From Clostridia bacterium (GTDB taxonomy: Bacteria; Bacillota; Clostridia; Oscillospirales; RGIG8002), in the NCBI GenBank assembly GCA_017620395.1, contig JAFZQJ010000028.1, forward strand, positions 1 to 37,368: a DNA stretch of 37,368 nt, given 5' to 3'. Shown here piece by piece: positions 3,798 to 37,368 of the stretch. Every line of letters starts with the position of its first letter. Within the stretch, counting starts at the first letter, position 1. The notes beneath the pieces are model-generated. The model was not told where the DNA came from and ran no database searches. It saw only the letters and a list, made by a program, of their open reading frames with translations. Made by a program: the position numbers and the translations under genes.

Positions 3798-3818
3798 TCC
3801 AAGACTCAACTTCAAAAA

Positions 3819-3848
3819 GAACCGCCGATATCGGCGGTTCTTTTTTTA
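3819..3848 (+). terminator. Rho-independent terminator after the zinc-ribbon gene
   Basis: A 22-base perfect palindrome (3819-3840, GAACCGCCGA and its complement) is followed by a run of T residues (TTCTTTTTTT), 22 bp after the stop codon. Confidence 0.92.
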
Positions 3849-19700: not shown

Positions 19701-19811
19701 CGCGAAGTAAAACGCGCCGGAAACGACGGAAAACGCGATGAGCATACTACAAATCAGCGCTGTCAGACGCAGCGCCTTTTTTGTTTTAACCGAATTTTTC
19801 CCGAGCTTCAT
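16776..19811 (-). CDS. Secreted metallophosphoesterase with C-terminal dockerin (copy A)
   Basis: 1011 residues from the ATG at 19809-19811, which has GGGGGTGA upstream; a GTG three codons earlier overlaps that site. Numbers below count from the GTG. A signal helix lies at about 17-42, and an N-terminal beta-rich domain (45-260) is shared with copy B. Ig-like segments follow (about 265-440 and 440-585). A calcineurin-like phosphoesterase (588-890) has DTQ (595-597), GDT (638-640), GNHE (672-675), FHGY (His756) and CGHEPG (791-796). A dockerin ends the protein (954-1014; DLDGDGEVTVADAL and DLDGDGVPTVSDAL). It should hydrolyse phosphate esters or diesters outside the cell while docked to a cohesin; the substrate is unknown. 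The first metal motif is D-x-Q, not the usual D-x-H. It follows copy B by about 20 bp, so the two form an operon. Confidence 0.9.
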   Translation of the reverse strand: MKLGKNSVKTKKALRLTALICSMLIAFSVVSGAFYFASGAEESYIFTELSGFSGYNRIALATVYINAVKAPAAFDGGDAAPEVTKGIRVKGASSDYESFSVATCRAPDSSFDDPFAQGAHIDPAASGNTINAFGEVSPADSDGIRIRVMTGTGSTSAPLRGSVRVRAAVTPSRGQSAAALYADYDKGFVFETKDYPVGGDGFAYVCWDGAECVDGFTADPELFMSKYLPRVNALCFVVTPEDGVSADAYYYVGSMSVFREYHEDLWDADESGVYTGAREFNLRTMGGVFPRLTVDGEAIAPDSERIDAYGDRNTVCTLDTADYGDGAHTLRMTVGTRLAFEQKAVFDSAAPYLVSSSIEDGAVAAPGAALDLKIADAASGVETTEVRLDGIPVTLPKPLSGEDAGMHRVAWKATDRAGFTAQGSFAFYLSAADSFGEFSVTRSGGSAVLDVDLLGSAGEPVTFTGYTDALPVTAVGSDGVTEEPISAYSVTSATGGKYPSQTFDVDVSGYEKESFTVSFTGGANMGETLVLSVLDPASGEWVKLADALVDAPSVTLAADVPTAAYADNGNVRFRVGLFTVDNGSDTFAWTTDTQYYIEKDWDTGHRDIQFYMEEQFDQIAADYLAGDIAYMVNTGDTVNTMNEEQEYVVAQQIYQRIYDTGLPNGILPGNHEVWHPDFRMWQKYFGEKYYGGCAWYGGGLNDNINHYDLITLGGKDFIFLYIGWTDETSTATIKWANRVLSTYRNRTAVVCFHGYLTPQAEFLTQYVNAESFWNAYLQDNENVRLILCGHEPGVARRTRAAYDGRNVTELLQCYQMDPVMWYRWRDGGSGLFRYMTVGDGTITSRCFSASREKYEMSLGHNVDADGGYYYWDINEENYTMPVEYVESPRVIKLLGFAAYDPSSSVALGSATSTAENCAIRVDDLAGAKVWKASLQSASSGVFAVGAAQPLAEGDLDGDGEVTVADALFALRSALGLKTPARRVRIAGDLDGDGVPTVSDALLILRKAASLG

Positions 19812-19833
19812 TACGCTCACCCCCGTGTTTTTT

Positions 19834-22800: not shown

Positions 22801-23115
22801 CGGATCCGCGAAGCTCGAGTCGGGCAGGCGGCAGGAGGCGATGCTGAAGCTGTTGACGCCTTCCGCCGGCTCCGTCGCCGTCACGCGCACGCTTTTGCCG
22901 AGCCCCTCCGCCGGCATTTCCACAGTCGCGGGCTGCGGAGATTTCACGCCGGAAAGCCCGACCATCGCGAGCGCAACGCGGTTATAAGAATCAAAGCCCT
23001 GCATATCCGCGCAGATATATTCGGATCCCGCCGCCGAAACAAACGGAACGGCCGCGAATATACCGGTAACCATCAGGACACAAATCAAAAAAGCAATCAA
23101 CCTTTTCGTCTTCAT
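19834..23115 (-). CDS. Secreted metallophosphoesterase with FN3-like domain and dockerin (copy B)
   Basis: 1093 residues; GGAGGTGA precedes the ATG. A signal peptide (1-28) is followed by an N-terminal domain (30-250) closely matching copy A (SFSIASCRLPDSSFADPFAD here, SFSVATCRAPDSSFDDPFAQ there) and Ig-like segments (about 255-580). The phosphoesterase domain (585-890) has DGQ (592-594), GDI (636-638), GNHD (670-673), VHGY (His751) and CGHEPG (783-788). Unlike copy A it carries an FN3-like domain (about 944-1028) before the dockerin (1034-1093; DVDGDGALSVADAL and DVDGDGEVTVSDAL). It is the first gene of the minus-strand pair and diverges from the GH16 array; a TATAAT for it lies at 23158-23163, with no convincing -35. 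The role is inferred as extracellular dephosphorylation within a docked complex. Confidence 0.9.
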   Translation of the reverse strand: MKTKRLIAFLICVLMVTGIFAAVPFVSAAGSEYICADMQGFDSYNRVALAMVGLSGVKSPQPATVEMPAEGLGKSVRVTATEPAEGVNSFSIASCRLPDSSFADPFADGAHLYPVASGKTYGVFDGVDLSDSVGVRFCVATGVSGSVTAVAGKARLQFGTAPAKGKSTGDVYAEYEEGFVFETPDYDIGADGFVNVLFEKAHPVDGRTPDDADFLSDYLPLVSVLNIIITPDAAINAGDFYYVGGLRAYRERREYDVYVSADDVCGGTVTISGISEHEGTLALEMDGKPMPVYYEKTVRTDSYGLSRIEYRVDTAAAGDGNHAFRLLLDGERVCEKNICFDNTPPYIARSSITHGSVQAARGTVDMRAADGESGIFAFSVRLDGAPIALPYSYSGLAAGAHSLTYSITDCAGMTKNGSIIFNVGSGVSYGGFSADAGAAAVEISGANGVTAYAYSAGGALPVTAYENAVALGELSAKTPAGEAAFTGRAKTVTLDEKYPYQAFEADVSGVAGDEIYVSAAAAANVGETLRLTVYNETESRWEELARARMEANSVTLSAAAPLADRVSDGKMKFRVSLLSVDNGADTFAWCTDGQHMVQHNYEDGSYRDYTYYIRDQFGLFVEEYGEGKIGYVLNTGDISDEPNNAAMFAECRELSNILDDANVPNGVVAGNHDANWTNWCPYYGAKYYDYQDWWGGDFNDNRGHYDLVTVGGRDLIVVCLGWTMENNTEATAWARRVFNAYPNRTGILAVHGYLGTDGEILFNTARKFWAIAEDCPNLAMIMCGHEPGTARNIRYTSDGRPVLEMLHDYQSGSPSNMWWQWLEGGSGLFRYVTIGDGTLTNRTFTISKDDYIRVYKRDPDADGGYYYWDMDEENYTMPVRLIDNERRVETFSFTARTAEEGEQAASAVVTNGTASFTGLPEGLWYVVCGGVTSPVYPSECGSAPQPVITGAYGANSTLTVRWELPDNASADGFIIRADGETLAELDGGVREYTGALPRAAGESARVCVVAVSGKGSAASENRDVVFSGVSFTAADVDGDGALSVADALAALRMSVGLYDGVTAKRWFAADVDGDGEVTVSDALRILRRAAGLL

Positions 23116-23260
23116 ACGTCACCTCCGACATGTTAATGCGCATATATTTACAGTTTAATTATATTATTTCCCCCTTGGCGATTTCTTGTCGGTGTGTGAC
23201 TATTTTACGAATCCGTGATATTTTCAGGCCGTTTTTGTCTCAATTTTATTATTATATATG

Positions 23261-23289
23261 TTGACTTGACGAACGGCGTATGGTATCAT
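23261..23289 (+). promoter_or_regulatory. Promoter of the GH16 array
   Basis: TTGACT (23261-23266), 17 bases, TATCAT (23284-23289). The expected transcription start near 23296 excludes the ATG at 23294 and supports the one at 23336. The rest of the divergent region 23116-23293 is AT-rich with no gene. Confidence 0.78.
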
Positions 23290-23335
23290 TAGTATGAAGT
23301 ATGTTCAGTTATTGTGGGATAGATTCGGAGGGATT

Positions 23336-26300
23336 ATGAGAAAGATCGCGGCGTTTTCGGTAATAATCGCGCTGGCGTGCTCCGTCTTTGCGGGAACGGC
23401 CTTCTTTGCGTCCGCCGTTACGGCTCAAGAGGCGATGGCCGCGGCGAAGCCCGAGCTCTACGGACTCTACACCGCGCAGAGCGCGGGTCTGCTTCGCGAC
23501 GCTTACGACAGAACCTCCGCCGCGCTCGAAGCCGGCAGAAGCGGAGCCGAAGAGGCTTCTGCGCTTTCCGCCGCTCTCGACGCGCTCGTCCCCGTCGAAG
23601 ACTACAGGCGCGGAACACTGCTCGGATTCGACGGCGTTACGGACGAAGACTTGGCCGCGATGAGACTCAACCGCGGGAGCGTTTCCGTTTCCGACGGCGC
23701 CGTTTCGATAACCGGCGAAGGAACGCTCCGTTACTGCAACGCCGTTCGCGGCGGCATCGCCGGCGGCTCGCCTTTCGGTATCGCGACGCCGGAATACGAC
23801 GGCTTCGCGATAAAAATAAACTCCGCCTCCGACGCGGCGCTCGACCTTGAAATAGGCAGACGCGGCAGTCCGGACGACTGCGTTTTCACTATTTCCGATA
23901 TATACGTTTCCGCGGGAGAAAGGTATTACCTATTCCCGTTCAGCCGTTTCGGCGACCTGCCGCTCGACGGCACGCTGAACTATATATCCCTGACCTTCAG
24001 CGGAACGCAGGAGGTCTCGTTCTCCGACCTGCACGCGGCCGCCTCATCGGACGACGCCGTCAGGCGCTCCACGACCGAAACTCCCTTGACGTCGCAGAAT
24101 TTCTCGCCGACTGCTTTTTATAAAATCCTGCAGCGCGACACCGATCTCGCGCTGACGATGAACGACACCTCCGGAGGCCAGGACCGCTTCACCTTCACCG
24201 AAAACGCGGAAAACGACGATTCGCAGCTGTGGCAGATATGCCGCGATCCCGTTATGACGTCGAGATTCAGGATAACGAACAAGAAGTTCGGTACTTCGAT
24301 AGCGAAAGCTCCGTCCGGTGATATGACTCTCAGCGCAAAGGTCGCCGACTACACGGATGATTTGCAGAAATGGTCCTGCTCCTACAGCAGGACAAAGGGA
24401 TTCCACTTTTATCTCAGCGGCGTCGGCAAGCTGAGCTACAGCGGCACTCACGCCCGCTTCGCCGGCCCCGGCACGGCAACAAGATATTTCGACGTCCTCT
24501 GCGCCGGTGATGAAGAGTGGACGCAGGTCTGGAGCGACGAATTCGACACGCTCGACCGCAGCGTATGGTACGTCGTGAACTCCAAGAACCGCGGCGATAC
24601 CGAGCCGATGTTCAACCGCGACAGTCCGAACAACGTATATACGGAAAACGGCAACCTCGTCATCAAGACGATAAAGGAAGATTATCGCGGCTACCACGCC
24701 ACAAGCGCATACCTGACCACCGAGGACAAGATCCATTTCTCCTACGGCAGATTCGAGATGCGCGCCAGGCTCCCCGAAGGGCGCAAGATCTGGCCGGCGT
24801 TCTGGCTGATGGGCGACGACAACGTCTGGCCCTACTGCGCGGAGATCGACGTCGTCGAAGCAGTCGGCTCCGGCCCCGACGACGACTGGCTCGGCGACCG
24901 GCGCTCCATCGCGACGTTCCACTACTGCAACGCCGGGAATCACTACGAGATCGGCGGATGGAGCGACTTCAATATCCTGACGCACACCGAGAAACTCTCG
25001 GAAAACTACCATATTTACGCTGTCGAATGGGAATACGACCAGATACGCTGGTATTTCGACGATACGCTTTACCTGACTGTCAACGTCGAGGGCGACGCGC
25101 TGAAAAACGCCCTGCAGGAAAACCCGATGTTTATGATACTCGACACCTCCATCGAAGGCCCCGGCAACAACCGTCTGCCCGATGGAATGCCCGACGAGGC
25201 TTATTTCTATATCGATTATATCCGCTACTGCAAGCCCTCGACATCGGCGGCGCCCGCGGACAGTTTGCCGTATGAATACGTCAGCAGCTCCCCCGATTTT
25301 CATCAGATCATCTGGTCGCCTGCAAACGTAGGCGCGGTCAACATTGAAAAAAATATGTTCGTCTATAACGACGCCGCCTGCAACACGAGCGTTTTCAACC
25401 TGACGGAGATGAAGCGCGTTGCTTTCAGAAACCTCACGCAGTCCGGCTGGACGATGGCAAGCGCGGTCTCCGCCGACGGAAGCACACTCGCCTTCGGCAG
25501 GCAGAGCAGGTTCACGGTATGCGACTCCAATCTCAACGTGCCTTATAACGAAGACGCCCCGCTTGAATTCCCCGCGCTCGCGCTCAGCAACGACGGCTCG
25601 CGGCTGTACTACGGCGGCGTGCCAAGAAGCAACGGCGAGGAATTCGCTGAACGGTTCCATATTTACGACACCGTGAATATGCAATGGCTGAGCAGCGAAT
25701 ACACCGGCAGCTGGGTGGATTCCATCGCCGTCCGCGACGACGACGTCTACGCCTACGGCTGCTTCAACGGGCTCGTGCGCGTGCGCTCCGCAAGCGGCGG
25801 AGATCTCGGAGAATTCAACGCGGGGGGCAGAGCGCTTTCGCTCGCGTTTTCGCCCGACCGCAGGAAGCTCTACGCCGCCTGCGGCGATCAGAAGATATAC
25901 GTTTATGATATTGAAACCCGCTCCGCTCGCGTATTCGCGTCATGCGGGGACGAAATCTACCGCGTCGCCGTTTCGCCCGACGGAACGCGCGTTACCGCCG
26001 CCTGCGGAGACGCCTGCGCTCGCGTTTACGACACCGCGACGGGGCGGCTCGTCGCGCGTCCCTGCCTCGGCGACCTCGCGGTGACCTACGTCGACTACTC
26101 GCTCGACGGCAAGCTGCTCGCGCTCTGCGGTCTCGACGCCAAAGTCGGCGTCTACCGCGCTGACGACGGACTGCCGCTCGCGCTTCTGAGCAACACCGAC
26201 AGCACATGCTGGTACAACACCGTCGCGATCAGCGCGGATAATACCTCGGTCATGGCGATACGCGGCGTGGAAAACTTCAACTCCGCCGTTTCCGGCTGGA

Positions 26301-26722
26301 AGCTCCCCGCCGACCTGCTCCCCGCGGACGGAGGCGACTCATCCGCGCTGGACGCGCTTCCCTGTTACGACGAAACCGCATACACTCCCGAAAGCTACGC
26401 GCCTTACGCCGCTGCGCTGAAAAACGCGCACGCGGTCAGGGCGAACAGATACTCCTCGCAGTCCGATATCGACTCGGCGGCCGCCGCCGTTTCCGCCGCG
26501 GCCGAAGGGCTCGTTGAGCTTGATTACATGAAGGGCGACTTCGACTTTGACGGCGAGATCACCGTTTCAGACGCGCTCGCCGCGCTCCGCATCGCCGCGA
26601 AGCTCGCGGACGAAACGCCGGAAAGCGTTCTTATCGGCGACATCGACGGCGACGGACACGTCACCGTTTCCGACGCGCTTGCGATACTCCGCGTAGCCGC
26701 CAAACTTGCAGACGCGCTTTAA
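23336..26722 (+). CDS. GH16 glycosidase-propeller-dockerin protein, copy 1
   Basis: 1128 residues from the ATG at 23336, which has CGGAGGGA upstream. An earlier in-frame ATG at 23294 lies at the promoter start site. It has a signal peptide (1-30) and a FIVAR-like segment (about 33-86). A beta-sandwich-like region (95-235) ends NYISLTFSGTQEVSFSDLHA, and a trefoil-like region (257-390) carries QLWQI. GH16 (394-634) has the catalytic EIDVVE (503-508) and FGRF/WPAFWLMG context. A WD40-like propeller (651-991) has repeats such as VSPDGTRVTAACGDACARVYD. FIVAR (1003-1061) and a dockerin (1065-1128) end it. GH16 enzymes cleave beta-1,3/1,4-glucans or galactans with retention; the motif with an extra residue is laminarinase/lichenase-like. 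It is secreted and presumably cohesin-bound. First gene of the array. Confidence 0.9.
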   Translation: MRKIAAFSVIIALACSVFAGTAFFASAVTAQEAMAAAKPELYGLYTAQSAGLLRDAYDRTSAALEAGRSGAEEASALSAALDALVPVEDYRRGTLLGFDGVTDEDLAAMRLNRGSVSVSDGAVSITGEGTLRYCNAVRGGIAGGSPFGIATPEYDGFAIKINSASDAALDLEIGRRGSPDDCVFTISDIYVSAGERYYLFPFSRFGDLPLDGTLNYISLTFSGTQEVSFSDLHAAASSDDAVRRSTTETPLTSQNFSPTAFYKILQRDTDLALTMNDTSGGQDRFTFTENAENDDSQLWQICRDPVMTSRFRITNKKFGTSIAKAPSGDMTLSAKVADYTDDLQKWSCSYSRTKGFHFYLSGVGKLSYSGTHARFAGPGTATRYFDVLCAGDEEWTQVWSDEFDTLDRSVWYVVNSKNRGDTEPMFNRDSPNNVYTENGNLVIKTIKEDYRGYHATSAYLTTEDKIHFSYGRFEMRARLPEGRKIWPAFWLMGDDNVWPYCAEIDVVEAVGSGPDDDWLGDRRSIATFHYCNAGNHYEIGGWSDFNILTHTEKLSENYHIYAVEWEYDQIRWYFDDTLYLTVNVEGDALKNALQENPMFMILDTSIEGPGNNRLPDGMPDEAYFYIDYIRYCKPSTSAAPADSLPYEYVSSSPDFHQIIWSPANVGAVNIEKNMFVYNDAACNTSVFNLTEMKRVAFRNLTQSGWTMASAVSADGSTLAFGRQSRFTVCDSNLNVPYNEDAPLEFPALALSNDGSRLYYGGVPRSNGEEFAERFHIYDTVNMQWLSSEYTGSWVDSIAVRDDDVYAYGCFNGLVRVRSASGGDLGEFNAGGRALSLAFSPDRRKLYAACGDQKIYVYDIETRSARVFASCGDEIYRVAVSPDGTRVTAACGDACARVYDTATGRLVARPCLGDLAVTYVDYSLDGKLLALCGLDAKVGVYRADDGLPLALLSNTDSTCWYNTVAISADNTSVMAIRGVENFNSAVSGWKLPADLLPADGGDSSALDALPCYDETAYTPESYAPYAAALKNAHAVRANRYSSQSDIDSAAAAVSAAAEGLVELDYMKGDFDFDGEITVSDALAALRIAAKLADETPESVLIGDIDGDGHVTVSDALAILRVAAKLADAL

Positions 26723-26738
26723 GGAGGAAACGAATCCG

Positions 26739-29700
26739 GTGAAAAAACTGACGGCGGCCGTTTTGATCGCGGCTTTAATATGCGCCTGTTTCTCCGGCGG
26801 CGCTTTCACGGCGGCCGCGGATTCGCTCGACCGCGCCATGAGTACGGCAAAGCCGGAACTCTACGGATTATACACGCTGCAGTCCGGAAACGCCCTGCGT
26901 GACGTATATGATCGCGCAGCGGCAACAAAAGCGGCCGGCGGCACCGACGCCGCGCTTGCTGCCGCGCTGCGAAACGCGCTCGGCGGACTTATCCCGCTCG
27001 AAGATTACGGACGCCTCGAACTCGGCGGGTTCGGCAACGTGACAGACGCCGATATCGCTGGGATGAAGCTGAATTCCGGCTCCGTATCCTCCGCCGCGGA
27101 CGGCGCTATCACGCTCTCCGGCGAAGGAACGCTGCGCTACTGCAACGCGGCGCGCGGCGGGATCGCGGGCCCCGATCCCTTCGGCGCAGTTTCGCCATAC
27201 GCGGACGGAATCGCGCTGAAGATCGATTCTTCCGCTGACGCGTCGCTCGACGTTGAGATCGGGTCGCGCGGCGAAAACCGCTCCGTCTATACGATTTCGG
27301 ATATCGCGGTCTCTTCGGGCGAGCGTTATTACTTCTTCCCCTTCAGCCGCTTCGGCTGTCAGCCCGACGAAACGTTCAATTACATCTCGCTGACCTTCAC
27401 CGGCGCGGACGAGGTATCCTTCTCCGACCTGCACGGCGTCGCGGGAGCGCTCGACGGCACGCGGAAAGCGGAGTATTCCGAAACGCCCGTCACGCCGCAG
27501 GCGCTTGACGGCGGCGGATACTTCAAACTGCTGCAAAAAGGCACTTCGCTCGCGCTGACGATGCTTACTCCCGCAGATACCGGCGACAGATGCTGCGTTT
27601 TCGCCGATGACGACCCGAACGACGACAGTCAGCTCTGGCTGATATGTCCCGACCCCTCCTCCTCCAACGCGGTGCGCTTCATAAACAAACACTACGCCTT
27701 CGCTCTCCGATGCGACCCGAACATCGGATCGACCATATCGGCTTCGCGGCCGAATCTCACCGAACCCGAGCAGGTTTTCAACTATTCTTATAACAAAGCC
27801 CGCGGATTCTCGTTCACTGTTTCGGGTAATCAGCGTCTCTCTTATACCGAATCATCATTAAAGTTCGTCTCAATGACCGGCGGGATCAAATACTTTGAGA
27901 TCGTCTCCGTCGCCGCGCCCGAATGGAGCACCGTATGGAGCGACGAATTCGACGGCCGCGCTCTCGACAGAAACGTCTGGAACGTCAGGGACGGAGTCGT
28001 TGACGGCGGCGAGAACTGCTACGCCTTCCGCGACAGCGAAGAGAACGTCTATCTGCAGAACGGAAATCTCGTGATACACACCTTCGAGGGAGAGTACCGC
28101 GGGCGCCCCGCGACAAGCGGGCACGTCAGCACCGAGGATAACGTGCAGTTCGGCTACGGCAGGTATGAATTCCGCGTGAAAATGCCGCACGGACAGGGGA
28201 TATTCCCCGCGCTCTGGATGATGGGCAACGACGACCTGTGGCCGCTGACGGGCGAGATCGATATTCTCGAAATGGTCGGATCCGGCCCGTCCGACGGCTG
28301 GAGGGACGACAAAAAAGCAATCGCCACCTTCCACTATGCCGACGAAAACGGCGAGCACCGCGAGATCGGCGGCTACTCGACAAACGGTTTTCTCTACTGC
28401 CCGGAGCGTCTTTCCGAGGATTATCACGTATACGCCGTTGAATGGGAAAAGGATCAGCTGCGCTGGTACTTCGACGATATACTTTATCTGACTGTCAACG
28501 TCGAAGACGCCGCGCTCGCCTCCGCGCTGCAGGAAAACCCGATGTACATACGCATCAACGTTGCGCTGCACGGGCCCGGCGACTATCAGCTGCCCGAAGA
28601 TATGGCCGAGGCGTTCACGTACGTCGATTACGTCCGCTATATGAAGCCGCGCTCTTCGGCGGCGCCGCAGGACGGAATAAAATTCGACCGCGCGATTCCG
28701 ACGTATGATTTCAGCCGGGAGTTCTGGTATCCTGCCAATGCCGGAGCCGCTGACGCCGCGCAGGATAAAATGCTGTATGCAAGCGGTTCTTCCGCGCTCA
28801 AGATATTCAGCGTCGGGGATATGAGCGAGCTTTACAGCGCCGAGATCGGCGGCGACCGGTACTGGATAAAAAGCTGCGCTTTATCCGCGGACGGCAGCCG
28901 CGCGGCTGCCGGATACACCGGCGGCGTCGCGGCATACAACGGCAGATTGAGCATAAGCGCCAAAACCGACTTCGCTTCAAACTCGCCCGTTGTCGCGTTA
29001 AGTCCCGACGGCTCGCGCTGCTACGCCGGCGGACAACCTAACGACTCGAGCGGTTTCTGCGATTACTTTTACGTTTACAATGCGTCGAATATGCGCTTGA
29101 TCAAGAGCGAATACACCGGCAGCTGGGTGGACAGCATAGCAGTCCACGACAGCGGCGTTTACGCCTACGGGTGCTTCGACGGCACCGTGCGCGTGCGTTC
29201 CGCTTCCGACGCCGACCTCGGCGGTTTCACCGCGGGCGGCAGAGTGATAAGCATCGCCTTCTCTCCTGACGGAAAGAAACTCTACACCGCCGACGGCGGA
29301 TGCAATATTTACGCTTACGATATCGAAAGCGGCACCGCGTCGCTCCTCGCCTCGCTCGGCGACGAAGTTTACCGTATCGCCGTTTCGCCGGACGGAACAC
29401 GCCTCGCCGCCGCCTGCGGCGACTCCTGCGCGAGAGTCTACGACCTCGCGACCGGACGGCTCGCCGCGCGCCCCTGCCTCGGCAGATTGTTCGTCACCGC
29501 AGTCAATTATTCCGTCGACGGCAAGCTTCTGCTTCTCGGCGGTACCGACGGCAAGATCGGCGTTTTCCGCGCCGACGACGGGCATCCGCTCGCGCTGCTG
29601 ACGGAAAACGACAGACCGCGTTGGTTCGACACCGCCGTCATCTGCGCGGATAACTCCGCCGTCATGTCGATACGCCGCATTTACGACTACCGATCCGGAC

Positions 29701-30131
29701 CGATCGCGTGGACGCTTCCGTCCGATCTCATACCCGCCGACGGCGGAGATCCCTCCGCGCTGGACGCGCTTCCCTATTACGACGAAACGGCCTACACCGC
29801 CGAAAGCTACGCGCCTTACGCCGCCGCCCTGAAAAACGCACACGCGGTCAAGGTGAACAGATACTCCGCGCAGGCGGTCATAGACGCCGCCGCGCAGGCG
29901 CTTTCCGACGCCGAGTCCGCGCTTGAAGAAAAGACAGTCAGGGGCGACCTCGACGGCGACGGCGAAGTCACCGTCTCCGACGCGCTCCGCGCCCTCCGCT
30001 TCGCGGCGGGGCTTTCCGAGCCGGACGAAAACGCTCTTCGCTCAGGCGACGCTGACGCGGACGGCGAAATAACCGTGTCCGACGCGCTCGTGATACTCCG
30101 GGTCGCCATTGGGTTGACAAGCACACTCTGA
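26739..30131 (+). CDS. GH16 glycosidase-propeller-dockerin protein, copy 2
   Basis: 1130 residues from a GTG at 26739 (VKKLTAAVLIAALICACFSG). AAGGAGG overlaps the stop codon of copy 1 and lies 11 bases upstream. The frame opens at an ATG inside copy 1, but that gives a charged extension before the signal peptide. The domain order is as in copy 1. GH16 starts near residue 396 (EWSTVWSDEFDGRALDRNVW), with the catalytic EIDILE at 506-511. The propeller includes SPDGTRLAAACGDSCARVYD, FIVAR is YYDETAYTAESYAPYAAALK, and the dockerin loops are DLDGDGEVTVSDAL and DADADGEITVSDAL. The predicted role is the same as copy 1; cleft loops after the catalytic motif differ, so substrate details may too. It is transcribed with copy 1. 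Confidence 0.9.
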   Translation: MKKLTAAVLIAALICACFSGGAFTAAADSLDRAMSTAKPELYGLYTLQSGNALRDVYDRAAATKAAGGTDAALAAALRNALGGLIPLEDYGRLELGGFGNVTDADIAGMKLNSGSVSSAADGAITLSGEGTLRYCNAARGGIAGPDPFGAVSPYADGIALKIDSSADASLDVEIGSRGENRSVYTISDIAVSSGERYYFFPFSRFGCQPDETFNYISLTFTGADEVSFSDLHGVAGALDGTRKAEYSETPVTPQALDGGGYFKLLQKGTSLALTMLTPADTGDRCCVFADDDPNDDSQLWLICPDPSSSNAVRFINKHYAFALRCDPNIGSTISASRPNLTEPEQVFNYSYNKARGFSFTVSGNQRLSYTESSLKFVSMTGGIKYFEIVSVAAPEWSTVWSDEFDGRALDRNVWNVRDGVVDGGENCYAFRDSEENVYLQNGNLVIHTFEGEYRGRPATSGHVSTEDNVQFGYGRYEFRVKMPHGQGIFPALWMMGNDDLWPLTGEIDILEMVGSGPSDGWRDDKKAIATFHYADENGEHREIGGYSTNGFLYCPERLSEDYHVYAVEWEKDQLRWYFDDILYLTVNVEDAALASALQENPMYIRINVALHGPGDYQLPEDMAEAFTYVDYVRYMKPRSSAAPQDGIKFDRAIPTYDFSREFWYPANAGAADAAQDKMLYASGSSALKIFSVGDMSELYSAEIGGDRYWIKSCALSADGSRAAAGYTGGVAAYNGRLSISAKTDFASNSPVVALSPDGSRCYAGGQPNDSSGFCDYFYVYNASNMRLIKSEYTGSWVDSIAVHDSGVYAYGCFDGTVRVRSASDADLGGFTAGGRVISIAFSPDGKKLYTADGGCNIYAYDIESGTASLLASLGDEVYRIAVSPDGTRLAAACGDSCARVYDLATGRLAARPCLGRLFVTAVNYSVDGKLLLLGGTDGKIGVFRADDGHPLALLTENDRPRWFDTAVICADNSAVMSIRRIYDYRSGPIAWTLPSDLIPADGGDPSALDALPYYDETAYTAESYAPYAAALKNAHAVKVNRYSAQAVIDAAAQALSDAESALEEKTVRGDLDGDGEVTVSDALRALRFAAGLSEPDENALRSGDADADGEITVSDALVILRVAIGLTSTL

Positions 30132-30139
30132 CGGAGGCG

Positions 30140-33100
30140 ATGTGTTTGAAAAAACTCATATCCCTTCTGCTGCTCACAGCACTCGTGTGCGCGTGCTTTT
30201 CCGGCGCCGCTTTCACTGCGGCGGCGGACTCGCTCGACCGCGCGATGAACGCCGTCAAGCCCGAGCTTTACGGAATGTATACGCCGCAGTCCGGCAACGT
30301 GCTGCGAGATAAATACGACCGCGCCTCCGCGCTGAAAGCGACAGGCTCAACCGATATCACTCTCTCGAACTCGCTTCGCAACGCGCTCGGCAGGCTGGTC
30401 GCTCTTGACGAATACACACACGTCGCGCTCGCCGGCTTCGGCGGTGTGACCGAAAACGATATAGCCGCGATGAAACTCAACGCGGGCGGCGTTTCCATAT
30501 CCGGCGGCGCCGTGACGCTCATCGGCGAAGGGACGCTCCGCTACTGCAACGCCGCCGAAAACGGCATAGCCGGCCCGTCTCCCTTCGGCGCCGACCTCTC
30601 GGACGCGGACGGGCTCGCGCTGACTGTGACTTCTGCCGCGAAGGCGACGCTCGATCTCGAGATAGGCGTGCGCGGAAGCGAAAGCGACTGCGTTTTCATA
30701 ATTCCCGACGTCGCCGTTTCCGAAGGTGAAAAGACATACTTTTTCCCCTTTGAGCGCTTCGGCTGTGCGGCGGCGGACAATACGCTGAATTATATCTCGC
30801 TCGCGTTTACGGGGTCGCCCGAGGTCACCTTCAGCGACCTCCACGGCGTCGCGAACTCGCTCGACGACGCGAAAAAGAGCGAATACTCCGAGGCCGTCGC
30901 GACTCCCGAAACGCTGAACGCGAAAAAATACTACAAGCTGCTGCAGAAGGATTCCACGCTCGCGCTGACGATGTTCAAAGCGACCGGCGAGGGCGACGAG
31001 ACCTTCGGCTTCACGGAAGACGATCCCGACGACGACGCGCAACTGTGGCAGCTTTGCCCCGATCCGGATCAGCCGGAGCGCGTGCGCATAGTCAACAAGC
31101 ATTACGGCTATGCGATACGCGGGGCTTATAACTATACACTCGGCTTCCTTCCCATTTCGGCGCGGGCGAACCTCACGAGCAACGAGCAGCTCTGGCTATG
31201 GGATTATAACGACGGCGGCTTTGCTTTTTGCGTTCCCAACTGGACGCGCATATCCTACTCCGGCGACAAGTTCCGGATCACCGGCATAAACGCCGAGGTG
31301 AAGCGTTTCACCCTCGTCGAGGCCGGCGGTCCCGAATGGACGCAGGCGTGGAGTGACGAATTCAACGGCGCGCAGATTGACCGCGGCGTCTGGCACGTCC
31401 TGGAAGAAACGAAAACGTGTTACTCCCTGCGCGACAACACGAACAACGTCTACGTCAGAGACGGCAACCTCGTTATACACACCTTGAGGGAAGAATACAA
31501 CGGCCGTCAGGCGACGACCGGGCATATACGCAGCGAATTCAGCACCGACTTCGGCTACGGAAGATACGAATACCGCTCAAAACTGCCGAAAGGCGACGGC
31601 GTCTGGCCCGCCTTCTGGATGATGGGCGAGGAAGACCTTTTCCCCCACACCGCCGAGATCGACGTCCTCGAGATGATCGGCACCGGCGAAACGGACGACT
31701 TCGCCGGCGAAAAGAAGGCGTTCGCCACCTTCCACTACGCGGGGGACGACGGCAAGCACGTCGAGCAGGGCGGCTGGACGGACCTCGGCATTCTCCATAC
31801 GAAGGAACCGCTTTCCGACGACTACCACATTTACGCAGTCGAATGGGACAAGAATCAGCTCCGCTGGTACTTCGACGATCTGCTCTATATGGTCGTGAAT
31901 ATCGAGGGCGACGCGCTCGAACGCGCGCTTCATACGAATCCGATATATCTGATAATCAGCGTCGGGCTGAACTGCCCTGACGGTCAGCTCCCCGAACATA
32001 TGGTCGAGTCGTTCCTTTACGTCGATTACGTCCGCTATTACAAGGACGCCTTGTCGGCGAAGCCGCAGGGAAATATCGCGTATGACGTTACGGATTCAAA
32101 GCCCGAATTCTCGCAGATCTTCTCTTACGCCGCGCAGACCGGCGCTTACTGCGCGGCGACCGATACGCTCGTCTACTCGACCGGCGCGGGAGAATCGCGC
32201 ACCTACGGCGTCAGCGATATGGTGTTCCGTTCAATACTGAAACTCGCGGGCGGCGAAAGTGACTGGATCATGTCGAGCGCCGTTTCCGCCGACGGCAACA
32301 AAATCGCGCTCGGCAGCAGAGGCAAACTCACGGTGACGGATTCGCAGTTCGCCGCGTCGGAAAGCATCGAGTTTCCGTCTGAATATCCGGCGGCCGCGCT
32401 GAGCAACAACGGCTCGCGCTGCTACGCCGGCGGCACCGCGATCGACGATTCCGATTTCTGCAAATACCTCTACGTTTACGATACGTCCGATATGCATACG
32501 CTCCGCAGGGAATACACCGGCAGCTGGGTGGATACCGTCGCGGTCGCAGCGAACGATTACTACGCTTACGGCTGTTTCAACGGCGCGGTTTACGTCCGTA
32601 GCGCGAGTGGTATCGGCGCTGGAAACTTCAAGACGGACGGCAGAGTCGTCAGCATAGTCTTTTCGCAGGACTGCAAAACGCTTTACGCCGCCTCCGCCGA
32701 CGGCAATATATATGTTTATGATATAGATACTCAAACCCCCTCGATCTTCGCCTCATGCGTTGACGAGATATATCAGCTCGCGCTCTCACCCGACGGAAAG
32801 CATATAGCCGCCGCCTGCGGCGACTCCTGCGCCCGCGTCTGGGACACCGCGACCGGCAAGCTCATCATACGCCCGTGCCTCGGGCGACTGCTCGCGACGA
32901 ACGTCGCTTATTCATCCGACGGCAAACTGCTCGCCGTCTCCGGCACGGACGGCCGCATCGGGATCTACCGCGCCGATGACGGGCTCCCGCTCGAGTTGCT
33001 GACGGAAGGCGTTCCGCGCTGGTATAACACCATCGCGCTGAACGCGGATGCGTCCGTGCTGATGGCAATACGCTACGTTACGGATTACAAATCCGGCCCC

Positions 33101-33529
33101 GTCGCGTGGCGGCTTCCCGAAGACCTTATACCCGCCGACGGCGGCGACGCTTCCGCGCTCGGCAAGCTGCCCTATTACGACGAAGCTGCCTACACCCCCG
33201 AAAGCTACGCCGTCTACGCCGCCGCGCTGAAAAACGCGCACACGGTCAGGACGAACAGATACTCTGCGCAGGCGGTCATAGACTCCGCCGCTGACGCGGT
33301 CGCCGCAGCATCCGCCGGACTCGTAAAGGCGGGGCTGATGAAGGGCGATCCGACGGGCGACGGCATGATCACCGTTTCCGACGCACTGCGCGCGCTCCGT
33401 TTCGCCGCGAAGCTCGCGGAAGCGGACGCGACCGGACTTTACGTCTGTGACGTCGACTGCGACGGCGAGATCACCGTCGCGGACGCGCTGTTGATCCTTC
33501 GCGCCGCGATCGGACTGATACAGCTTTAA
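30140..33529 (+). CDS. GH16 glycosidase-propeller-dockerin protein, copy 3
   Basis: 1129 residues from the ATG at 30140, which is only two bases from GGAGG. The TTG at 30146 has eight-base spacing and gives a start like its siblings (KKLISLLLLTALVCACF), so it may be the real one. Domains are in the same order: FIVAR-like (about 33-87), beta-sandwich-like, trefoil-like (QLWQLCPDP near 301), GH16 from about 398 with catalytic EIDVLE (506-511), propeller, FIVAR and dockerin. The first dockerin loop is DPTGDGMITVSDAL, with Thr at a usual Asp/Asn calcium position; the second is DVDCDGEITVADAL. The gap after copy 2 is 8 bp. A small GC stem-loop (33533-33548) follows before copy 4. Confidence 0.9.
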   Translation: MCLKKLISLLLLTALVCACFSGAAFTAAADSLDRAMNAVKPELYGMYTPQSGNVLRDKYDRASALKATGSTDITLSNSLRNALGRLVALDEYTHVALAGFGGVTENDIAAMKLNAGGVSISGGAVTLIGEGTLRYCNAAENGIAGPSPFGADLSDADGLALTVTSAAKATLDLEIGVRGSESDCVFIIPDVAVSEGEKTYFFPFERFGCAAADNTLNYISLAFTGSPEVTFSDLHGVANSLDDAKKSEYSEAVATPETLNAKKYYKLLQKDSTLALTMFKATGEGDETFGFTEDDPDDDAQLWQLCPDPDQPERVRIVNKHYGYAIRGAYNYTLGFLPISARANLTSNEQLWLWDYNDGGFAFCVPNWTRISYSGDKFRITGINAEVKRFTLVEAGGPEWTQAWSDEFNGAQIDRGVWHVLEETKTCYSLRDNTNNVYVRDGNLVIHTLREEYNGRQATTGHIRSEFSTDFGYGRYEYRSKLPKGDGVWPAFWMMGEEDLFPHTAEIDVLEMIGTGETDDFAGEKKAFATFHYAGDDGKHVEQGGWTDLGILHTKEPLSDDYHIYAVEWDKNQLRWYFDDLLYMVVNIEGDALERALHTNPIYLIISVGLNCPDGQLPEHMVESFLYVDYVRYYKDALSAKPQGNIAYDVTDSKPEFSQIFSYAAQTGAYCAATDTLVYSTGAGESRTYGVSDMVFRSILKLAGGESDWIMSSAVSADGNKIALGSRGKLTVTDSQFAASESIEFPSEYPAAALSNNGSRCYAGGTAIDDSDFCKYLYVYDTSDMHTLRREYTGSWVDTVAVAANDYYAYGCFNGAVYVRSASGIGAGNFKTDGRVVSIVFSQDCKTLYAASADGNIYVYDIDTQTPSIFASCVDEIYQLALSPDGKHIAAACGDSCARVWDTATGKLIIRPCLGRLLATNVAYSSDGKLLAVSGTDGRIGIYRADDGLPLELLTEGVPRWYNTIALNADASVLMAIRYVTDYKSGPVAWRLPEDLIPADGGDASALGKLPYYDEAAYTPESYAVYAAALKNAHTVRTNRYSAQAVIDSAADAVAAASAGLVKAGLMKGDPTGDGMITVSDALRALRFAAKLAEADATGLYVCDVDCDGEITVADALLILRAAIGLIQL

Positions 33530-33581
33530 TAACGGCGGCACGCCGCCGAAAAGATAATGCAAACCAAAGGAGAGACTCAGT

Positions 33582-36500
33582 ATGAAGAAGATCATCGCAA
33601 CCATCCTGACCGCGATCATGGTCTGCTCGCTCTTCGCGGGCGCCGTCACCTTCGCGGACTCCGCCCTTTCCGCCGCGCTCGAAGCGGCGAAACCGGAGCT
33701 TTACGGACTCTATACCGCCCACACCGGCGGCTATCTGCGCGACTGCTACGACAGAGCGCAGGCGGCTCAGCAGGCGGGCGGAGACGGCAGCGACGAGGCG
33801 ACGGCACTCAACGCCGCGCTCAACGCCCTCACGCCGCTGACCGATTATACCCGCTCGCCGCTCATCGGCTTCGTCAACGTCGACGCCGCGGCGATAGCGG
33901 CAATGAAGCTGAACTCAGGCAGCGTCACCGCCGATCAGGGAGTTATCACCCTTTCCGGCGAAGGCAAGCTCCGCTATGCCAACGCCGCAGCGGAGGGGAT
34001 CTCCGGCGACTCACCCTTCGGCGTCGCGACTGACGACTGCGACGGCTTCGCGCTGAAGATCTCCGCAGACGCCGACGCCGTGCTCGACCTCGAAGTCGGC
34101 AGACGCGGCAGCGCGGACGATTGCGTCTTCACTCTTTCCGACGTCGTTATCACCGCGGGCGAGAGATACTACCTCTTCCCCTTCGACCGCTTCGGAGATC
34201 TCCCGCTCGACGGCACGCTGAACTACATCTCCCTGACCTTCACCGGCGCTTCGCTCGTTTCCTTCAGCGATCTGCACGCCGTGCTTGCGGAGGAAACCGC
34301 CGGCGAGTACGAATACACCGAGACCAAGCTGACCGCCCCCGTTTTCGACAGTTCCAAGTATTACAAGATCACCCTTTTCGGCGATCCCGACAAGGTCTTT
34401 GAAATGGTCGACGACACAGGCAACGGCAAGTATCTGCTGAAGGAACCGGTTCCGGGAAAAGCGAGCCAGGAGTGGCAGATCTGCCGCGACCTCTCCAACA
34501 CGTCGCGCTACCGCATAATCAACCGCCACTACGGCACGACTCTGTTCGCCGACGTGACCGGCGTCGCGCCGTCGCTCAACGACGGAGTTCCCAACCTCAC
34601 GGACACCAATCAGGAATGGTCGCTCTCGTATAAAGCCAGGACCGGTTTCACTATCCAGATCTCAGGCGTCACCAAGCTGACCACGTCTATAGACGGCAGA
34701 GTCCGCTGTCAGAGCGCCGGCACGACCAAGACCTTCGATATCTACGAGGTCCCCGGCGACGATTGGCGCCTCGTCTGGGCCGAAGAGTTCAACGACGGCG
34801 AAGTCGACCGCACCGTATGGCGCAACCGCACCGGCAAGTTCCGCCCCGTCAGAGAGCCTATCTACCACCGCGCAGGACCGGAGAATATGTACTTTGAGGA
34901 CTGCGACGACGACGGCGTCGTCAGCGGCAACCTCGTTATCCGCACCGACACCTCCCCCTGCGAGGAAACCACGCGCTACTACCAGACTCCCGGGCATGAG
35001 GAAGACGTCCTCGCGACCGGCGCGTATCTCGACTCCGTCGGCAACCACCTGTTCACTTACGGCAGAATGGAGATCCGCGCACGTCTGCCCGAAGGCGATC
35101 ACATCTGGCCGGCGGGCTGGATGATGGGCACCTCCACGATGGGCTGGGCCGCCTGCGGCGAGCTTGATATAATCGAAATGGTCGGCAACGGCGAACGCGG
35201 CAATCACACCGGCGAAAGTTCTCCGATAGCGACGATCCACTGTATGGCGGATACCGGCGTCGGCTACACGCAGGGAAGCAACGCGACCGGCAAGATGCTC
35301 ACCGACGATATACTCGCCCACAACTACCACAGCTATATAGTCGAGTGGGACGCCGACAGCGTACGCTGGTTCTGGGACGATATTCTCTTCTTCGTAATGC
35401 CCATTGACGTCAATCAGGAGCAGTACTCGTTCCTCTCCAACCCGATGTATCTGATACTCAACACCTCGATAGACACATCCAAGAGGGAGCAGGAAGGTAT
35501 CAGTTCTCTCCCCGATAACACTCCCGAGGAGAGCTTCTACTACATCGACTACATCCACTACTATAAAAAGACGAAGGAGGCAACTCCCGAAGCCGACTCC
35601 CCCGTCGAAACTTATAAGAACTTCGCCTTCTACGATCACTCCAGCGAGATCGAGAACGTCATGGCCGCCGACGGCACCGGCAACAAGGCGTTCATCACCG
35701 GCAAGAGCGGCAAAATAATGGTCTATGACATACCCACCGGCACCCTCGACCTCTCCCGCACGGTCAACTACGCCGACTGCCCGTGGAGCGGCGCCGTTTC
35801 TCCCGACGGCAGCAAATACGTCGTCGTCGAGCAGGGCGGCAACGACCGCGGCGACGTCAATGCCGGCCGCATACTCGTTTTTGAAAACGGCAACTTCAGC
35901 AACCCGAGAATAATTGAAGGCAGCTACGCCTCCTGCGCCGAATGCGCGATCACGCCCGACAGTAAATACCTGCTGCTCTTCGGCAGACCGCACTCCACGG
36001 AGGGCAGGAACACCGCGAAGAACGTCTACGTCTTCGACCTCGACACCGGCGAGATTGTTATGCAGGATCCCTACGCCGCTTACGGCCGCGAGCTCGTTAT
36101 GGCCGCGGACGGCCGCTTCGCCGCCTCCGGCACCGACGGCAAGGCGATGCTCTACTCCGCCGATTTCCAAAAGGTCGGCGAACTTGAGAACGACATACTC
36201 GTCAGCGCGATGGCGTTCAGCGGCGACAGCAGCCGCCTCGCTACCTGCAACACACGCGGCGTCATCCGCGTATGGGATTCCGCGACGGGCGAGCTTGTCA
36301 AAGCGATTGACGGACCCGGCGAATACGATATCCTCTCAGTCGCGCTGAACGCCGACGGAAGCCGCGTCGCCGTCGGCTGCTCCGACTTCTGCACGAGACT
36401 GTTCGACGTCGGAAGCGGCAAGCTTATCAAGCGTATGGCGGGCGCGCAGTCCTTTATCGCCACGGTCAGGTATTCGCCCGATTTCAGCGTTATAGCCGCC

Positions 36501-37103
36501 GCGTCCAACGACGGCAAAATCCGCGTCTACGACGCGGACGGCAACATCCGCTGCATCCTCGAATCCAACCGCGGCGATACCGGCTATATCGACAAGTTCC
36601 TCTTCTCAGCGGACGGCAAGCACATCGCCGCCGAGATATTCATTACTCAGAGAAGCTGCGTCGCCTTCTGGGAGCTTCCCGACGGCATAGCTACCGAAAA
36701 GGCCGACTTCTCCGCGCTCGAGGCGCTGTCGTTCCATGACGAAACGGCGTACACCGCCGAGAGCTACGCTCCCTACGCCGAGGCGCTGAAAACCGCGAAC
36801 GCGGTCAAGGCGAACCCGTACTCCGCGCAGAGCGCGATCGACGCCGCAGCGCAGGCGGTCGCGGAAGCCGCGGAAGGTCTCGTTGAAGGCGGAGACGAGC
36901 CCGATATAATGAAGGGCGACTTCGACGGCGACAAGCAGATCACCGTAAACGACGCCCTTTCCGCGCTCCGTATCGCCGCGAAGCTGGCCCCCGAAACGCC
37001 TGAAGCGTTGCTCATAGGCGATATTGACGGCGACGGCATGATTGCCGTCAACGATGCGCTCGCGATACTCCGCGTCGCCGCGAAACTGGTTGACAGCCTG
37101 TGA
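33582..37103 (+). CDS. GH16 glycosidase-propeller-dockerin protein, copy 4 (divergent cleft)
   Basis: 1173 residues, the longest copy, with AAAGGAGA upstream of the ATG. It has a signal peptide (1-25), FIVAR-like segment, beta-sandwich-like region (about 95-232) and trefoil-like region (255-390, QEWQI). GH16 runs from 394 to about 662 with catalytic ELDIIE (527-532). The GH16 domain has extra sequence at about 413-480 (around HRAGPENMYFEDCDDDGVVS) and WMMGTSTMGWAACGELD before the catalytic motif, which changes the cleft compared with copies 1-3. A propeller (about 670-1010), FIVAR and dockerin follow. The first dockerin loop is DFDGDKQITVNDAL, with Lys for the usual Gly; the second is DIDGDGMIAVNDAL. 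It may have a different glycan target. It lies 52 bp after copy 3. Confidence 0.9.
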   Translation: MKKIIATILTAIMVCSLFAGAVTFADSALSAALEAAKPELYGLYTAHTGGYLRDCYDRAQAAQQAGGDGSDEATALNAALNALTPLTDYTRSPLIGFVNVDAAAIAAMKLNSGSVTADQGVITLSGEGKLRYANAAAEGISGDSPFGVATDDCDGFALKISADADAVLDLEVGRRGSADDCVFTLSDVVITAGERYYLFPFDRFGDLPLDGTLNYISLTFTGASLVSFSDLHAVLAEETAGEYEYTETKLTAPVFDSSKYYKITLFGDPDKVFEMVDDTGNGKYLLKEPVPGKASQEWQICRDLSNTSRYRIINRHYGTTLFADVTGVAPSLNDGVPNLTDTNQEWSLSYKARTGFTIQISGVTKLTTSIDGRVRCQSAGTTKTFDIYEVPGDDWRLVWAEEFNDGEVDRTVWRNRTGKFRPVREPIYHRAGPENMYFEDCDDDGVVSGNLVIRTDTSPCEETTRYYQTPGHEEDVLATGAYLDSVGNHLFTYGRMEIRARLPEGDHIWPAGWMMGTSTMGWAACGELDIIEMVGNGERGNHTGESSPIATIHCMADTGVGYTQGSNATGKMLTDDILAHNYHSYIVEWDADSVRWFWDDILFFVMPIDVNQEQYSFLSNPMYLILNTSIDTSKREQEGISSLPDNTPEESFYYIDYIHYYKKTKEATPEADSPVETYKNFAFYDHSSEIENVMAADGTGNKAFITGKSGKIMVYDIPTGTLDLSRTVNYADCPWSGAVSPDGSKYVVVEQGGNDRGDVNAGRILVFENGNFSNPRIIEGSYASCAECAITPDSKYLLLFGRPHSTEGRNTAKNVYVFDLDTGEIVMQDPYAAYGRELVMAADGRFAASGTDGKAMLYSADFQKVGELENDILVSAMAFSGDSSRLATCNTRGVIRVWDSATGELVKAIDGPGEYDILSVALNADGSRVAVGCSDFCTRLFDVGSGKLIKRMAGAQSFIATVRYSPDFSVIAAASNDGKIRVYDADGNIRCILESNRGDTGYIDKFLFSADGKHIAAEIFITQRSCVAFWELPDGIATEKADFSALEALSFHDETAYTAESYAPYAEALKTANAVKANPYSAQSAIDAAAQAVAEAAEGLVEGGDEPDIMKGDFDGDKQITVNDALSALRIAAKLAPETPEALLIGDIDGDGMIAVNDALAILRVAAKLVDSL

Positions 37104-37138
37104 TCACATTAACTCACGCCGAACAGGCGGAAGATACA

Positions 37139-37168
37139 CTCGGCAGAGGACTGCGGTCTTCTGCCGAG
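37139..37168 (+). other. Intercistronic stem-loop between copies 4 and 5
   Basis: A 13-bp stem (CTCGGCAGAGGAC with GTCTTCTGCCGAG, one G-T pair) and loop TGCG. No T run follows, so it is not a typical terminator. It could stabilise or separate transcripts, as stem-loops do in some cellulosomal operons. Confidence 0.6.
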
Positions 37169-37188
37169 CTTCATAAGAGGGTGAACGT

Positions 37189-37368
37189 ATGAAAAAAACG
37201 ATAGCCGCGCTGCTTTCCGCGCTGATGCTCTGCTCGCTTTTCGCGGGCGCGATACCCTTCGCCTCCGCGGATTCCCTCGACGACGCGATCGCCGCCGCGG
37301 GCAGAGAGCTTTACGGTATGTATACGGCGCAAAGCGGAAACCTGCTTCGCGACTGCTATGACAAAGCA
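37189..37368 (+). CDS. GH16-array paralog, copy 5 (5' part only)
   Basis: The first 60 codons, cut by the right edge. GAGGGTGA precedes the ATG. The protein starts MKKTIAALLSALMLCSLFAG with a signal peptide, then ADSLDDAIAAAGRELYGMYT and AQSGNLLRDCYDKA, the same FIVAR-like N-terminus as copies 1-4 (for example KPELYGLYTLQSGNALRDVY in copy 2). The later domains cannot be seen; GH16, propeller and dockerin are expected only by analogy. Confidence 0.85.
   Translation, partial: MKKTIAALLSALMLCSLFAGAIPFASADSLDDAIAAAGRELYGMYTAQSGNLLRDCYDKA

Follow-up and report, generated by a model that had tools for sequence, protein, structure and literature searches.

The stretch of DNA analysed here (the window) comprises all 37,368 nucleotides of contig JAFZQJ010000028.1 (C28) of the Clostridia bacterium assembly GCA_017620395.1, a genome of 1.93 Mb in 35 contigs that we denote G000. 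It carries a head-to-tail array of genes for secreted proteins that join a glycoside hydrolase family 16 (GH16) domain, a WD40 beta-propeller and a C-terminal dockerin-type repeat pair. Four copies are complete, all on the forward strand (copy 1, 23336..26722; copy 2, 26739..30131; copy 3, 30140..33529; copy 4, 33582..37103), and only the 5' part of copy 5 is present (37189..37368, forward strand), which starts with an ATG at 37189 and runs off the contig end. Successive genes are separated by 16, 8, 52 and 85 bp. An earlier note on this DNA, made from the letters alone, had recognised the four complete GH16-dockerin paralogs and the start of a fifth, with gaps of 8-85 bp, and this description is borne out. 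The start that it gave for copy 1 is also correct, since the ATG at 23336 is directly preceded by GGAGGG and a longer frame from 23294 begins in the -10 region of the promoter described below. Copy 2 starts with a GTG preceded by AGGAGG.

The array continues beyond the window. The final 97 bp of C28 recur exactly at the start of contigs C29 and C31 when these are read as reverse complements, and the simplest overlap path, from C28 through C29 to the reverse complement of C31, gives six copies, which raises the 'at least five' of the earlier note to at least six. This number is a minimum, with the path drawn from contig-end overlaps rather than from reads; since C29 (3582 bp, carrying one copy) has the same 97 bp at its far end and so overlaps itself, further copies may be collapsed. 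The copies on C29 and C31 are 94.6% identical over their first 668 bp. Downstream of copy 6 lie a terminator and then a gene on the opposite strand, and in the related genome G003 the sequence past the last array copy resembles that past copy 6.

All four complete copies share one order of parts, namely a signal peptide, a helical segment, a beta-sandwich, a beta-trefoil, GH16, an eight-bladed WD40 propeller, a helical hairpin and the dockerin. The 'same domain order' noticed earlier was therefore right but incomplete, as the helical segment, the beta-sandwich, the beta-trefoil and the propeller had been left out. GH16 scores above the curated Pfam cut-off of 22 bits in all six array copies (E-values of 5e-17, 5e-20, 1.5e-18 and 6e-12 in copies 1-4), and WD40 (PF00400) likewise passes its cut-off in six out of six. 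For Dockerin_1, with a cut-off of 22.9 bits, copy 2 lies above (26.6) and copies 1 and 3 just below (21.1 and 19.8). Every copy nevertheless ends in a pair of calcium-loop repeats of DxDxDG-like sequence, as expected of a type I dockerin, the loop of repeat 1 being altered to DFDGDK in copies 4-6. With two such repeats recognisable at the ends of copies 1-4, the dockerin reading stands, with the Pfam cut-off passed in copy 2 only.

The AlphaFold2 model of mature copy 1 has a mean predicted local distance difference test score (pLDDT) of 70.1 and a predicted template modelling score (pTM) of 0.48, with much of the GH16 region at 40-65. Given the low pTM, we make no claim about how the domains pack. 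The propeller, at about residues 613-962, is modelled with confidence and has 33 strands, which fits eight blades; the eight-bladed assignment refers to this model of copy 1. In a fold search its best match was 5mzh_A (Z 39.7, 2.4 Å over 329 residues), and the best propeller matches are what we take, partly from their titles (e.g. Tako8), to be eight-bladed WD40 domains. The array propeller resembles those of ODA16, TBL1XR1, Fbw7 and Rsa4 in fold, but it belongs to an extracellular bacterial enzyme and shares 12-17% identity in most rows. When the N-terminal region was modelled on its own (pLDDT 79.5), it gave a beta-trefoil fold (Z 17.6, 2.2 Å over 131 residues). In the fold search, the rows from the full-length model fall almost wholly on the propeller, and those from the N-terminal model almost wholly on the trefoil.

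Each GH16 domain keeps the catalytic E-x-D-x-x-E motif. It reads EIDVVE, EIDILE, EIDVLE and ELDIIE in copies 1-4, is found in all six array copies, and is intact in all 54 GH16-WD40 genes tested in the four genomes of the family, in agreement with the intact sites reported earlier. We thus reject an inactive or lectin-like GH16 in the array, and GH16 domains of an inactive kind, which the earlier note had named as telling against its reading, were not seen; the triad is intact in all rows, and the only broken one belongs to a separate protein on contig C3. The best matches of the array GH16 in the PDB are laminarinases. In the laminarinase subfamily GH16_3, a WPA...Wxx...WPx pattern is described as 'largely conserved' (Viborg et al. 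2019, PMC6827312). Both Trp-Pro pairs are present in copies 1, 5 and 6, and one is altered in copies 2 (FPA), 3 (FPH) and 4 (WAA). The array shares with the GH16_3 of that paper the E-x-D-x-x-E beta-bulge, the WPA...WxM...WPx pattern in some copies and a conserved histidine near the next strand, but its GH16 domains are fused to a WD40 propeller, and the words 'WD40', 'propeller' and 'dockerin' do not occur in the paper's main text. A loop on the active-site side, which reads NNELQ in four outside relatives, is replaced in the array by copy-specific loops, namely TEPMFNR (copies 1 and 6), ENCYAFR (2), KTCYSLR (3), EPIYHR (4) and DPYYYR (5), and these are largely retained inside the orthologue sets. 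In our view the loop differences offer the best sequence argument that substrate contacts may have been altered. Of the 'one beta-glucan-like polymer' suggested in the earlier note, a beta-glucan would fit the GH16_3-like sequence, but nothing points to a single polymer.

The array has the layout of one transcription unit. A sigma-70-like promoter, TTGACT-17-TATCAT with a TG before the -10 hexamer, is predicted at 23261..23289 on the forward strand; it is one of two scan sites matching at 10 of 12 positions, and its hexamers have equivalents in all four species of the family. Upstream of it, at 23182..23224 on the same strand, a conserved 43-bp element (TTTCTTGTC...TTTACGAATCCGTGATATTTT) is found before copy 1 in all four genomes. 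With up to two mismatches allowed, the core of this element has six matches across the four genomes; four lie at the array, and a reversed-pattern control gave none. The other two copies of the core lie at G000:C12:108094-108114 and G003:C6:3018-3038, in spacers near large predicted proteins. The element is possibly the operator of a small regulon. Inside the array there are 13 terminator-like sites compared with 14.6 in shuffled sequence, i.e. none above chance, and the terminator after copy 6 is a strong one, a 14-pair hairpin with a U-tract. Since a promoter precedes copy 1, no internal terminator is evident, and the spacings and Shine-Dalgarno sites of the genes fit as well, the array is likely to be one operon, and the shared transcription whose absence the earlier note had named as telling against its reading is what the layout suggests.

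Hairpins without a U-tract lie in three of the spacers: between copies 3 and 4 (33532..33549, forward strand, -11.4 kcal/mol), where the equivalent spacer has a hairpin in all four genomes; between copies 4 and 5 (37139..37168, forward strand, 13 pairs, -24.0 kcal/mol), present in three species, with 39 of 39 cells paired and two two-sided changes; and before copy 6 (-13.7 kcal/mol). No Rfam family was found at the gathering threshold in 19800-37368, so these hairpins match nothing curated. In Clostridium cellulolyticum, stem-loops of -24.3 and -14.1 kcal/mol in the cip-cel operon are reported to set cellulosome stoichiometry (PMC4423207), and the energies of two array hairpins (-24.0 and -13.7) come close to these. 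Like the array on its reading as one operon, cip-cel is a long polycistronic unit of cellulosomal type with stem-loops in its spacers; the two differ in that cip-cel, as described in that paper, encodes a scaffoldin and different enzymes, whereas the array encodes a single enzyme family. It is conceivable that the spacer hairpins could tune the amounts of the individual products.

To place the copies relative to one another, we used a tree built from 55 GH16-WD40 rows, which represent 54 genes of the four genomes; 44 of its 52 inner branches were starred. Orthology labels were taken from this tree, except that the gene G001_arr1 was counted as copy 1 by its position. The tree groups copies across species, copy 1 in three genomes, copies 2 and 4 in four, copy 5 in three, and copies 3 and 6 in two each. 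The order within the array is partly kept, the relative of copy 3 being second in G003. Module by module, the mean identities between paralogues (28-37 pairs, within one genome) and between orthologues (17-23 pairs) are 57% and 76% for the N-terminal helix, 65% and 76% for the beta-sandwich, 36% and 69% for the trefoil, 48% and 85% for GH16, 38% and 78% for WD40, 75% and 79% for the linker helix, and 69% and 70% for the dockerin. The nearest neighbour lies in the same genome for none of 19 cores, for 2 of 19 N-terminal parts and for 8 of 18 linker-dockerin segments, all eight in downstream copies; the linker-dockerin segments of copies 4 and 5 are 95.1% identical. These counts suggest that the cores were already separate when the species split and have stayed so, and that the docking ends of copies 4-6 have been exchanged. 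The ratio of nonsynonymous to synonymous substitution rates (dN/dS) of GH16 orthologues has a median of 0.14 over 23 pairs, indicating purifying selection; that of WD40 has a median of 0.27.

The genome also encodes candidate counterparts of the dockerins. Five cohesin matches, four of them over the cut-off, fall in four proteins, three of which are encoded on contigs C8, C32 and C22: one of 799 aa that has a pair of cohesins plus a dockerin, one of 379 aa with a C-terminal membrane-like segment, one of 323 aa with Big_2 and a dockerin, whose cohesin is slightly under the cut-off, and a candidate adaptor-type scaffoldin within the window (12295..14715, reverse strand) that combines LRR_5, a dockerin, three Big_3 domains and a C-terminal cohesin. 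The last cohesin (PF00963, 12301-12714) scored 24.7 bits, over the cut-off, in the genome scan and is absent from the hmmscan listing. On the side of the cargo, there are 64 dockerin matches in 59 open reading frames (ORFs), or 58 without a 16-aa artefact. Nine of these are GH16-WD40 proteins; four further proteins of this kind (copies 4-6 and C27c) have a dockerin recognised by motif only. The other 49 ORFs include, by Pfam, 11 phosphatase-type proteins (four Metallophos, five Y_phosphatase3 and two Exo_endo_phos, with two more probable), seven GDSL, two rhamnosidase, one GH92, three peptidoglycan-acting and six LRR_5 proteins; some 12 of the dockerin proteins lack any recognised domain. Pfam recognised none of GH5, GH9, GH10, GH11, GH43 and GH48 in these 49. 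Searches of the whole genome gave no match for GH9, with the control positive in 2 of 14, and none for GH48, where the positive control was silent too. As no classical cellulase (GH9, GH48, GH5) is seen on a dockerin, we class the system as cellulosome-like only.

That GH16 can be borne on a dockerin is already known from Ruminococcus flavefaciens, in which one protein of strain FD-1 has the arrangement Doc-GH16-GH16-GH16 (PMC4081043). The rumen cellulosomes described there resemble the present system in their secreted dockerin enzymes, cohesin-plus-dockerin adaptors, leucine-rich-repeat proteins and dockerin-borne GH16. The present genome differs in having about 13 separate dockerin-GH16-WD40 proteins and many phosphatases, and no recognised GH9 or classical cellulase on dockerins.

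What is apparently new is the fusion of GH16 to WD40, its expansion and its restriction to one family within the collections searched. G000 has 18 GH16 matches, two stand-alone and 16 with a propeller, and all 26 of its WD40 matches fall in GH16 frames; the family carries about 15 GH16-WD40 genes per genome. A profile of 12 rows (A2) gave end-to-end matches in each of the four family genomes. None came from the rest of the sample, which comprised 291 further genomes of the order, 390 drawn from the class and 397 from the phylum (the draws overlapping slightly, with the best 3-4 candidates per genome scored). A wide spread of the fusion in Clostridia was thus not found in this sample. Outside matches stop within the GH16 part or shortly after it; at four outside loci read by eye, what comes after GH16 is trefoil/Fn3-like or carbohydrate-binding-like sequence, not WD40. 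Beyond the phylum, where plasmids, phages and viral contigs were the collections searched, 80% of the query was covered by none of 309 matching plasmid records, none of three phages and no viral contig. A scan of contig collections returned two loci, both from the same family, and the relatives named are goat and water-buffalo rumen metagenome-assembled genomes (RGIG3742, RGIG8183). In the open-access literature we found no paper joining GH16, WD40 and dockerin and nothing on a family 16 glycoside hydrolase with a WD40 beta-propeller, nor any that brings together dockerin, phosphatase, GDSL and cohesin. For WD40 with dockerin and cellulosome, the match listed dealt with fungal gene transfer, and a GH16-WD40 fusion was absent among the matches listed, by titles and abstract starts, for WD40-glycoside hydrolase fusions in bacteria.

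Taken together, we argue that the array is one rumen Clostridia operon for six or more secreted GH16 enzymes of beta-glucanase type, not equivalent to one another, in a cellulosome-like system, a reading that we would give a probability of about 0.6. By sequence, the array has a single promoter before copy 1 and a single terminator after copy 6, and each protein has a trefoil region, GH16 with its catalytic residues intact, the WD40 propeller and the C-terminal dockerin-type repeat pair. The trefoil-GH16-WD40 cores are of old date and differ from one another, and the downstream linker-dockerin ends have been homogenised within each genome. The dockerins may plug the enzymes into the cohesins of the genome, the membrane-anchored one and those of the adaptor scaffoldins, while trefoil and propeller could give each copy a recognition surface of its own, by which different glycans would reach the GH16 cleft. 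The intergenic hairpins would set the relative amounts of the products.

Several observations weigh against parts of this proposal. Copies 4-6 have no listed Dockerin_1 match (for copy 4, among the 25 families listed), and copies 1 and 3 are sub-threshold. Over the GH16-WD40 core, G001_arr1 groups with copy 6, its GH16 alone being nearest to copy 1; its place outside the copy 1 group implies that exchange between copies does happen. The covariation of the hairpin between copies 4 and 5 comes from three sequences and is weak, as 48 of 500 shuffles were equally good. In the propeller, 15 of 356 columns are at least 90% conserved, so that no fixed binding site is visible, and the structures that match it best are WD40 domains of eukaryotes that are known to bind proteins, so a protein partner would suit it equally well.

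The earlier note had offered 'enzyme dosage or fine substrate variation' as what selection maintains here, and the two can be told apart to some extent. If the array were a recent amplification retained for more of one enzyme, the tandem layout and the common promoter would be expected, as would the near-identical ends of copies 4-6 (94.6% over 668 bp, and 95.1% in the linker-dockerin). The core modules, however, share 36-48% identity between paralogues against 69-85% between orthologues, and the orthologue sets are older than the species. The cores are thus not near-identical, and dosage as the main reason is very improbable and largely refuted, whereas variation is supported by these identities, by the 0 of 19 same-genome neighbours, by the loops and by the purifying selection on GH16. 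The sequences suggest that the array holds old functional variation and is not simply a dosage device. A stronger contender, though we place it short of even odds, is that the propeller does not bind glycan but serves protein interaction, docking the enzyme to a surface protein, a transporter or a partner enzyme. WD40 propellers usually bind protein and have mostly been described as platforms for proteins inside cells; the structures that match best here are domains of this kind. The same idea would suit the catalytically broken, membrane-anchored GH16-WD40 protein on C3, which lies beside ABC (ATP-binding cassette) permeases and a solute-binding protein and is 75-85% identical in the other three genomes. 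Yet few modules vary more between paralogues than the propeller (38%), which would be unexpected if the copies had a protein partner in common, and the enzyme already has a docking module.

The target of the enzymes could also be the wall glucan of microbes (fungi, yeasts or protozoa) instead of a plant mixed-linkage glucan, which we regard as somewhat unlikely. The company of the dockerins fits it, with the GH92 alpha-mannosidase, the 11 phosphatase-type enzymes, the peptidoglycan-acting proteins and the GDSL esterases, and so does the lack of a GH9 match in the genome, subject to its control in 2 of 14. The two rhamnosidase-type proteins could equally indicate plant pectin, however, and the silent GH48 control and the roughly 12 dockerin proteins without a recognised domain count on the same side. 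A wider conjecture, and to us a distinctly improbable one, would see in the whole a cellulosome-like machine that is not cellulolytic and belongs to one rumen Clostridia family. The eight-bladed WD40 propellers on its GH16 enzymes would form a new and diversifying class of module for glycan recognition outside the cell, and dockerin-borne phosphatases, alpha-mannosidase and esterases would act with them on phosphorylated microbial wall polysaccharides. What sets the proposed operon of non-equivalent enzymes apart is that a WD40 propeller is joined to a secreted glucanase, on a dockerin system with unusual cargo. A propeller that directs the choice of substrate would count as a carbohydrate-recognition module of a new type, and one that binds protein would represent a new way of organising enzymes into a complex at the surface. 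With orthologues of the copies in four species, there is a natural series for finding residues that alter substrate choice.

Other GH16-WD40 proteins are encoded outside the array. In the C3 protein (G000:C3; L037 7161-18500) the catalytic motif is lost, and a membrane-like segment lies at the N-terminus. Besides the permeases and the solute-binding protein, the C3 protein adjoins a DUF5696 protein; it is conserved in all four genomes of the family. An origin of the fusion in this transporter-associated protein was considered and set aside, since it occurs in its own genus only (4 of 197 genomes of the order), and no older source of the fusion was found. On contig C27 (L027 16590 to L028 1854), a GH16-WD40-dockerin protein of 1754 aa has a C-terminal part that by eye, not by Pfam, resembles a BMP/PnrA-type solute-binding protein; frames of similar length are found in G001 and G003. 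On contig C14 (L030 8835-14640), a pair of GH16-WD40 genes lacks dockerins, and one of the two has a lipoprotein-like signal; a pair of this type is present in the other three genomes too, with one gene broken by a stop in G002.

Two further dockerin proteins lie upstream of the array on the reverse strand. The gene at 16776..19820 encodes a metallophosphoesterase (PF00149, E-value 1.2e-8) with a C-terminal dockerin, and that at 19834..23115 a divergent protein with Dockerin_1 over the cut-off, which reads as a phosphoesterase by its likeness to the product of 16776-19820, not by Pfam. A second tandem array elsewhere in the genome (G000:C20:28839-44605; L035 3839-19605) comprises five secreted CBM4_9-dockerin-Y_phosphatase3 proteins, tyrosine-phosphatase-like, with two dockerin matches each and, in four of the five, also Big_3. 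In the window itself, self-comparison revealed a perfect 32-bp palindrome at 3814-3845, in an intergenic or gene-end position.

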